NCBI RefSeq assembly: GCF_003337235.1
Contig: NZ_QPJC01000002.1
Coordinates: 372,001 to 436,000, forward strand
Length of the DNA: 64,000 nt
Reading direction: 5' to 3'
From: Halopolyspora algeriensis
Lineage (GTDB): Bacteria; Actinomycetota; Actinomycetes; Mycobacteriales; Pseudonocardiaceae
Below the pieces are notes generated by a model that worked only from the letters and a program-made list of their open reading frames with translations, did no database searches and was not told the origin of the DNA. Position numbers and translations under genes: made by a program. Shown here one piece after another: positions 27,439 through 29,512 of this stretch; the first letter of the stretch is position 1; every line of letters begins with the position of its first letter.

Positions 27439-27639
27439 CTGCAGCAGCTGGAGCCACTGCGGGTCGAGCATGCCTCGGAGGCTTTCTCCGTATTCAACGA
27501 CGTGCGACTGCATGTCTGGACCGGCGGGTCACCGTGCTCACGGGAACAACTCGAAGCCCGATACCGGCGGCAGTCGGCCGGGCAATCGCCGGACGGCACG
27601 TACGGGTGGCTGAACTGCTCGAACGACTGTGGACCTGTT
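27439..27639 (+). pseudogene. N-terminal fragment of a GNAT acetyltransferase
   Basis: In one frame the segment reads LQQLEPLRVEHASEAFSVF, DVRLHVWTGGSPCS, EQLEARYRRQSAGQSPDGT and YGWLN. These align consecutively with the first 65 residues of GNAT N-acetyltransferases of the RimJ-like type. No start codon with a ribosome site remains and the acetyl-CoA-binding part is absent: the frame runs into the 3' end of the DedA gene. It is a relic. Confidence 0.55.
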
Positions 27640-28265
27640 CATGCTTGCTGGTTCTGTCGTTCGGAGAAGCGGCGTATCACCTCCGCGGCGGCGCCGAGCG
27701 TGATTCCTACGGCCACTGACAGCAGCAGGGTCAGCCACGGCTTGCCCGAGAACGCCTCGCCGAACGCCACGGTTGCGCCCACGTGGTATCCCGCCCATAG
27801 GACGACGGCGACCACGTCGGCGAGGATGAAGCGGCGCCACGGTACTCGCAGAGTTCCCGCGGCGAACATCACCACAGTGCGACCGCCGGGAAGAAACCGT
27901 CCGCCGATGATGATGACGTTGCGGTGCCGATGCATCCGCCGACGCGCCCAATCCAGGCGCTGCCGAGATCTATCGCTCCGAAAGAGGTAGTTGACCAAAC
28001 GTCCGCCGCCGTACTGGCCGATCAAGTACAGGATGTTGTCGCCGACCAAGGCCCCGACGACGGCAGCGGCGGCCACGCCCACGACCCACAGGTCGCCGTG
28101 CAGGGCAATCAGCGTCGCGGTGATGACCACCGTCTCGGCGGGCACAATACCGATGATGTCGAGAACGGCCAGCGCAGAGATCACGGGATAGGTGACCGGC
28201 GACCCGGAGATCCACTGTGTGATGAAGTCGAACACCGTATGTACGTACCCGCGTCGCGCAGCCAT
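27639..28265 (-). CDS. DedA-family membrane protein
   Basis: The 208-residue protein has four to six hydrophobic segments. The DedA hallmarks are present: a re-entrant region with VPAETVVIT, the acidic GALVGDNILYLIGQYGG motif, FLPGGRTVVMFAAGTL with the conserved Gly/Arg pair, and MPWxxF-like VPWRRFILADVVAVV. DedA proteins are flippases/transporters needed for lipid carrier recycling and membrane homeostasis. ATG 28265 gives the normal family length. A longer in-frame start would add unrelated Arg-rich sequence. The 5' leader up to the palindrome at 28522 would be ~255 bases. Confidence 0.83.
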   Translation of the reverse strand: MAARRGYVHTVFDFITQWISGSPVTYPVISALAVLDIIGIVPAETVVITATLIALHGDLWVVGVAAAAVVGALVGDNILYLIGQYGGGRLVNYLFRSDRSRQRLDWARRRMHRHRNVIIIGGRFLPGGRTVVMFAAGTLRVPWRRFILADVVAVVLWAGYHVGATVAFGEAFSGKPWLTLLLSVAVGITLGAAAEVIRRFSERQNQQA

Positions 28266-28521: not shown

Positions 28522-28553
28522 AAGTGATGGATAACGTTTATTATCCATCACTT
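28522..28553. promoter_or_regulatory. Perfect 13-bp inverted repeat, probable operator
   Basis: Arms 28522-28534 and 28541-28553 are exact inverse complements (left arm AAGTGATGGATAA) around CGTTTA. The element is about 30% GC in DNA of about 65-70% GC. Such a site suits a dimeric repressor. It stands 257 bp upstream of the dedA start and at the edge of a gene-less stretch. Confidence 0.6.
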
Positions 28554-29173
28554 GGAGAAGGAGAGAGGAGGGGCACGTACGGCAGGGGACGGCACTTGGC
28601 CGCATCGTTGAAAGCCGGCCACAGAGCTGCGCCGAGTGGCTCGCGTCCGGCCTTGGCGTCGGCTCGTGCACCGCTGTGGAGTCGGCTCGGCAGTATCCGG
28701 GACCGGCGGCTTCCGGGCCTTGCGGATGATCACAAGAAGCCGATGCCGCCGTCGCGTCGCGCTGCATGGAGCAATGGAAGGCGCCCGACTACAGCACCGC
28801 CTCTTCGTCACTGTGACGAATATGGGGACAGTGAAGTCCCTCTTGAGAGGCCGACCCTGTGTCCGCCACCAGCGCTGGCCTGGCCGCACGCGGAAAAAGT
28901 GCCTCGCAGGGATGCGGCAAGGCAGGCACACCGGCACAGCGCCCGGCTCGTGCTGTCGCACGCGTCCCGTGCGGGCCGGCACTCGCGGCGGCCGCGCGGA
29001 GATCACCGAATCGGCGCCGACGGCAGCCGGTGGTCTTGCGTTGCACGGAGTCGCGAGGCCGCCGAGAAACCCCTCTCGGGCTCGTGCTCTGCCGCTCCCA
29101 AAGTGCCGATAAGATACATTATGTCAAGTAATGCCGTCGAAAGGCCTCTCCTGCCGCATGCCAGGATCAGACC
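28554..29173. other. Gene-less stretch of about 620 bp
   Basis: Open frames here have poor codon usage and no family resemblance. A GGAGAAGGAGAG run follows the palindrome immediately (28554-28566) and would be a good ribosome site, but no credible protein follows. Short palindromes occur (for example CGTCACTGTGACG near 28807) and an AT-rich patch at about 29113-29132 may hold the csaA-like gene's promoter. A lost gene controlled by the palindrome is the simplest reading. Confidence 0.4.
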
Positions 29174-29512
29174 ATGGCGATGATCGAGTGGGACGACTTC
29201 GACAAGGTCGAGTTGCGTGTCGGCACGGTGGTCGACGCGGTCCCGAATGCGAAAGCACGCAAGCCCGCCTACGTGCTGACGGTGGATCTCGGCGAGTTCG
29301 GCGGTATGAAGACCTCCAGCGCGCAAATCACCGAGCACTACCCCACCGAGACCTTGATCGGACGTCAGGTGCTGTGCGTGTGCAATTTCGAGCCCAGGCG
29401 GGTCGCCGGCGTCAAGTCCGAAGTCCTCGTGACCGGTGCTCATGACCAGGACGGGAAAGTCGTCCTCGCCGGTTTCGATCACCCTGTTCCGAACGGTACT
29501 CGACTTCTGTGA
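29174..29512 (+). CDS. CsaA-like tRNA-binding-domain protein
   Basis: The 112-residue protein is a single OB-fold of the tRNA-binding type. WDDFDKVELRVGTVVDA at the start, YVLTVDLGEFGGMKTSSAQI and VLCVCNFEPRRVAGVKSEVL match CsaA, a dimeric protein proposed as an export chaperone and RNA binder. ATG 29174 has a second ATG two codons later. It is transcribed toward the frameshifted acetyltransferase 60 bp away. Confidence 0.85.
   Translation: MAMIEWDDFDKVELRVGTVVDAVPNAKARKPAYVLTVDLGEFGGMKTSSAQITEHYPTETLIGRQVLCVCNFEPRRVAGVKSEVLVTGAHDQDGKVVLAGFDHPVPNGTRLL

Follow-up and report, generated by a model that had tools for sequence, protein, structure and literature searches.

A stretch of 64,000 nucleotides from the Halopolyspora algeriensis genome (hereafter the window) carries an AT-rich palindrome, termed P1, close to a dif site of the recombinase pair XerC and XerD (XerCD). 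Comparison with related genomes makes it highly probable that P1 is the core site of a tyrosine recombinase, termed R, which in this genome is encoded on another contig. We further propose, with a probability of roughly 70%, that P1 is a second recombination site at the replication terminus and R a third Xer-like recombinase, the likeliest use of which would be between sister or dimeric chromosomes, beside XerCD/dif. The identity of P1 as a site is strongly supported by the genome comparison; from it we infer that R binds and recombines P1, that this resolves dimers, and that FtsK exerts control.

In the proposed mechanism, R would bind the two near-identical 11–13 bp arms of P1 as a homodimer and synapse two P1 sites, located either on sister chromosomes or as two copies within a chromosome dimer, and strands would be exchanged at the borders of the 6-bp center. 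R/P1 would thereby offer a second route to unlink chromosomes at the terminus beside XerCD/dif, and possibly the main route in one lineage without detectable dif. The usual picture is that of one dimer-resolution system per chromosome. If the proposal is correct, a second recombinase and site stand beside dif in several actinomycete families (Saccharopolyspora, Micromonospora, and Nocardiopsis among them), labor may be divided at the terminus (e.g., between hyphal growth and sporulation), and there are natural examples in which one system has perhaps been exchanged for the other. R and P1 may also be useful in genetic tools as an orthogonal recombinase–site pair. Searches of an open-access library, judged by the papers listed, gave no report on a second site at the terminus or on a third Xer recombinase in actinomycetes; subscription papers were mostly and preprints wholly uncovered, so that an earlier description is possible.

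The P1 palindrome and the adjacent dif site

P1 (AAGTGATGGATAA-CGTTTA-TTATCCATCACTT) consists of two arms that are complementary at 13 of 13 positions, separated by a 6-nt spacer. Nested within it is a core with the geometry of dif (28524–28551, GTGATGGATAA-CGTTTA-TTATCCATCAC; layout 11+6+11), and the inner ends, ATAA-N6-TTAT, are the same as those of dif. An earlier note, made from the letters of the window, had reported a perfect AT-rich palindrome here and judged it far from chance, and both statements hold: an analytic estimate based on composition puts the expected number of perfect 13-bp arm pairs (loops 0–12) in 64 kb at 0.07, and at 2.7e-6 if nine or more A-T pairs are required. The window has three longer perfect palindromes, each higher in G+C than P1. 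Within the 4.56-Mb genome, the P1 motif occurs once (≤3 mismatches). The GGAGAAGG run beside P1 is best read as the remnant of the inverted repeat's outer arm, and not as the start of a once-expressed gene as had been suggested, because a locus from the same genus (L073) and locus L148 carry that arm on both sides of the palindrome (TTCTCC...GGAGAA).

The dif site, AGTGCCGATAAGATACATTATGTCAAGT in full (29102–29129), lies 578 bp from P1. Its assignment to XerCD is made from sequence: the 28-bp consensus has one match in the genome, and its inner arm positions are identical (19/19) to the Frankia alni dif as given in an excerpt of PMC3025954. The consensus used for scanning was the window's own dif, the full score of which is therefore by construction; the runner-up in 464 kb shares 14/19 inner arm positions. 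Given a XerCD dif site at this position, the window should contain the replication terminus. The 20-kb GC skew goes from mostly positive to mostly negative around 372–432 kb of the contig, with dif at 401 kb, and across 464 kb the skew is consistent with a terminus at dif, yet not sharp. The octamer CGGGGGAG, which may be a KOPS (FtsK-orienting polar sequence)-like signal for FtsK, has its strand switch in the interval 394,876–414,323, enclosing both P1 and dif.

The interval from P1 to position 29173 had been described as gene-less. It does lack any recognizable gene (mechanical open reading frames exist, and none of the four tested that overlap the interval has a Pfam match), but it is not featureless, as it contains dif and a second palindrome, P2. 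With respect to non-coding RNA, no Rfam family matches the window at gathering scores.

Co-occurrence of P1 and R and linkage of P1 to dif

The search for P1 in close relatives that the earlier note had advised shows that the palindrome is kept among them, with matches in 12 of 150 genomes, including its own (≤3 mismatches). Eleven of the 12 sites have dif in the surrounding 3-kb locus; the twelfth (G084) is in a different genome place, and that genome also has a variant P1 near its dif. We then compared 81 dif loci: that of the window and, from 80 relatives, up to 10 kb of sequence surrounding dif. The relatives were picked from family genomes in which dif had been matched (164 of 200) and from one other search. 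A relaxed P1 pattern is present in 42 of these loci; each has a single copy, invariably on the XerC side of dif and 259–1071 bp away from it. The arms vary jointly on both sides (TTGATGG, TTCATGC, TTCGTGC, TTGGTGG), while the 6-bp center is free. A search of public genome contigs with the exact arms of the window gave no match; the arms differ between genera.

Clustering of the proteins encoded around dif identified R, a tyrosine recombinase of ∼335 aa present in 27 of the 81 loci (a count that includes L093, L121, and L141, from genomes without R in the genome-wide search). In the dif loci, R mostly points away from dif and often begins at P1. The protein matches Phage_integrase, and its catalytic residues are intact, with R177, K203, H279, R282, H305, and Y314 invariant in 16 diverse members. 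It falls far below every curated NCBIfam cut-off for the known Xer families: XerC (172 vs. 335 bits), XerD (160 vs. 330), XerA (113 vs. 220), and XerS (79 vs. 267). A structure model of R (mean pLDDT 77, with a poor C-terminus) resembles lambda Int, XerA, XerH, and XerD in a fold search. Residues 260 and 263, in a predicted helix, were promising candidates for recognition residues by raw mutual information and unremarkable after tree correction.

In this genome, R is encoded at C11:158699-159733, outside the window, and is 52% identical to the query, the R of a relative (G008). Against the XerC- and XerD-like proteins encoded here, the same query has ∼30% identity: a protein on contig C4 exceeds the XerD cut-off (334 vs. 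330 bits), and for one on C14 XerC is the best model, with a score under the cut-off (314 vs. 335 bits). The earlier note was thus right that no cognate protein gene adjoins the palindrome. It had also proposed that the regulator accompanying the palindrome be sought; a steady protein partner does exist, and it is the tyrosine recombinase R instead of a regulator.

Co-occurrence was surveyed in 200 genomes of the family, with R called at E ≤ 1e-35 and P1 as the exact core TGSATAA-N6-TTATSCA. R is present in 106 genomes and P1 in 104; both occur in 104, P1 alone in none, R alone in two, and neither in 94. One of the two R-only genomes (G190) has a P1 that is one base off near dif (TTGATGCATAT-TCAACG-TTATGCATGAT); the other (G012) is 74% complete, and 3 kb of its sequence has dif and P2 and lacks P1. 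A single P1 is found in 101 of the 104 genomes, such that P1 with R presents one inverted-arm site per chromosome near the terminus. A sample of 394 genomes from the class has R in 33, P1 in 36, and both in 32 (lists compared by hand). Presence varies even inside one genus (g23), where G088 has both and G023 and G060 have neither.

R, P1, and dif occur together in named genomes of Micromonospora, Salinispora, Actinoplanes, Nocardiopsis, and Streptomonospora. Wherever R, P1, and dif share a locus, the distance in the 80 distinct P1–dif pairs ranges from 256 to 3321 bp, with 79 pairs within 1.41 kb; proximity is conserved and side is not. In several genera, including that of the window, R is far from P1 and the single P1 is still by dif. 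Consistent with the expectation for an unlinked R, the Saccharopolyspora and Actinopolyspora loci among 80 named loci have no P1 near R. Five of 11 distant-R loci (L198, L200, L203, L207, and L208, which are also five of the eight loci with a diverged R) have R adjoining MFS, GDPD, and Zn-ribbon genes; relatives of these genes neighbor dif in other genera, with GDPD found at 28 of the 81 loci. Another, L209, has the Zn-ribbon gene alone, and the remaining five have none of the three. In the former five loci, it seems that P1 and dif were separated from R as a unit. This speaks against P1 being an operator of R and in favor of P1 being required at the terminus.

A genome-wide search (≤1 mismatch) found no dif in seven of 31 R-bearing genomes, all of which belong to a sister family (f31). 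P1 is present in six of the seven, and no dif-like site was found in the 7–16 kb around P1 in these six. For one of the family (G403), 400 kb around P1 has no dif-like site above 14/19, the background level. Among octamers with at least 20 occurrences in these 400 kb, CGGGGGAG is the strongest strand-switching one, turning over in 696,478–698,139 (2-unit support 696,121–712,769), an interval that contains P1 (696,837–696,864). Another octamer, GGGGAGGA, was considered as a second switching octamer at P1 in this genome and was set aside, as its fitted switch falls elsewhere.

Alternative explanations and relation to known systems

Several observations weigh against a second terminus system. P1 without a detected R occurs in four class genomes (G294, G524, G548, and G581; the site in G294 is 496 bp from a dif), and R without P1 in one (G466). 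Co-occurrence is clustered by phylogeny, and the Fisher value overstates its independence. P1 is on the XerC side of dif in 49 of the 80 pairs, and on the XerD side in 31. In this genome, octamers other than CGGGGGAG switch more strongly, elsewhere, and XerC- and XerD-like proteins exist, such that a second system is not obviously needed. After tree correction, co-change between the bases of the P1 arms and the residues of R pointed to no convincing recognition residue. Finally, one of the three plasmid loci that were read (L379) has no P1-type palindrome upstream of its recombinase.

The main competing explanation, which we regard as unlikely, is that mobile DNA attaches at P1, where R or its plasmid relatives would integrate and excise elements beside dif, and of which the host keeps a domesticated copy. 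Relatives of R with ∼35–38% identity do occur on plasmids of Mycobacterium, Rhodococcus, Mycolicibacterium, and others (among 30 of 63 records), with a P1-type palindrome just 5′ of the recombinase in L380 and a weak one in L378; such palindromes are also near R relatives on contigs L368, L369, and L372. Moreover, one genome (G465; L367 6185-12458) has a pair of P1-type sites, at distances of 0.9 and 7.2 kb from dif, that enclose Fic, QatA, QatC, and QatD-like genes, possibly a defense cassette moved by the recombinase family of R. A single P1 in 101 of 104 family genomes leaves no pair of sites to bound an element, however, and P1 persists at the terminus with R elsewhere, as an attachment site need not. 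A more far-reaching version of the preferred explanation, held at slightly less than even odds, is that many actinomycetes have two complete and independent terminus systems, XerCD/dif and R/P1, the latter having replaced dif in one lineage and, as the related plasmid modules suggest, having been recruited to chromosome segregation from a resolution system of plasmids.

It is improbable that R at P1 forms an architectural or accessory complex that aids XerCD at dif, with P1 itself not recombined. Accessory proteins are known to help Xer recombination at plasmid cer sites; the position of P1 within ∼1 kb of dif in nearly all pairs, and its having remained with dif where R did not, would fit such a role. 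The catalytic residues of R are invariant, however, the distance and side of P1 relative to dif vary, and R and P1 occur where no dif is found. The operator explanation, and with it the earlier note's idea of a lost gene, was dropped, as P1 follows R in trans. The protein that tracks the palindrome is a recombinase on another contig and not an adjacent regulator; and while many genomes have P1 where R begins, the lone P1 stays by dif where R is unlinked, and R then has none. It is accordingly very improbable that P1 serves as operator for R or for a target of some other regulator. Least probable of all is an inverted pair of DnaA-box-like sequences near the terminus. The DnaA box consensus begins TTATCCA, which the P1 arm resembles, and the P1-only genome G581 has a site (CCTGTGGATAA-N6-TTATCCACAGG) like two inverted boxes; yet DnaA is general, whereas P1 follows R genome by genome, and the paired arms extend considerably beyond a 9-mer and vary in concert on the two sides.

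A second terminus system, the explanation we prefer, has counterparts among known Xer systems. Like XerC/XerD-dif, it combines a 28-bp terminus site (11-bp arms, a 6-bp center, and ATAA/TTAT inner ends) with a tyrosine recombinase that has the same catalytic residues. It differs in that the P1 arms are near-identical, so that one recombinase would suffice, that the R query from G008 is ∼30% identical to the XerC- and XerD-like proteins here and R far below the curated cut-offs of XerC and XerD, and that a canonical dif is separately present. Single-recombinase systems, according to an excerpt of PMC5357621, include XerS/difSL, XerH/difH, and XerA/dif, each with one recombinase and one terminus site as proposed for R/P1; for xerS, genetic linkage to the site is described there, and R and P1 are often linked as well. 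In the same excerpt XerS/difSL is an alternative to XerCD, whereas R/P1 stands beside XerCD/dif, and with dif and XerC/XerD-like proteins in this genome, R/P1 is not its only Xer system. The XerL/dif system of Legionellales, as described in PMC9765430, is likewise built on a divergent Xer-like recombinase, with a partly palindromic, low-GC site near the terminus and variable flanking genes. The Coxiella XerL gene is described there as being on a different replicon from the chromosomal site, comparable to the unlinked R. Unlike this system, R/P1 is found in Actinomycetes and as a second system beside XerCD/dif.

Features of the window and additional observations

Table 1. Features around P1 in the window (positions counted from its first nucleotide).
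Feature	Position	Strand	Remarks
VTT-domain (DedA) gene	27639..28265	-	Pfam; neighbor only
P1, putative palindromic core site	28522..28553	.	13-bp arms and 6-bp center; single-copy, near dif in relatives, tracks R
GGAGAA, putative right half of P1 outer arm	28554..28559	.	on both sides in L073 and L148
P2, palindrome TTCGTCAC-T-GTGACGAA	28804..28820	.	296 bp from dif
Predicted dif (XerCD) site AGTGCCGATAA-GATACA-TTATGTCAAGT	29102..29129	+	sole genome match; 19/19 inner arm positions as in Frankia alni dif
tRNA_bind-domain gene	29174..29512	+	Pfam; neighbor only

One 176-kb contig (G216:C55; L366 6710 and 8033) bears a dif-like site and a P1 of its own, at a distance of 1.3 kb. It may be a separate replicon carrying a second dif-like site and a second P1, and one site per replicon fits the expectation for a multimer-resolution system.

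Palindromes other than P1 also recur near dif. Sites of the P2 form, CGTCAC(n0-2)GTGACG, are within 5 kb of dif in 57 of the 81 loci, nearly always on the XerC side. Three further copies of P2 in this genome (L199 5956, 7934, and 10354) are 43–47 kb from dif and surround a different tyrosine recombinase, an arrangement that is similar in L202 and L217, and not in L201. Some dif loci without P1 (e.g., L085, L105, and L115) have a CGTCACGTGACG palindrome ∼380–390 bp from a CGTCACnGTGACG palindrome, a pair with near-constant spacing located near the GDPD gene.
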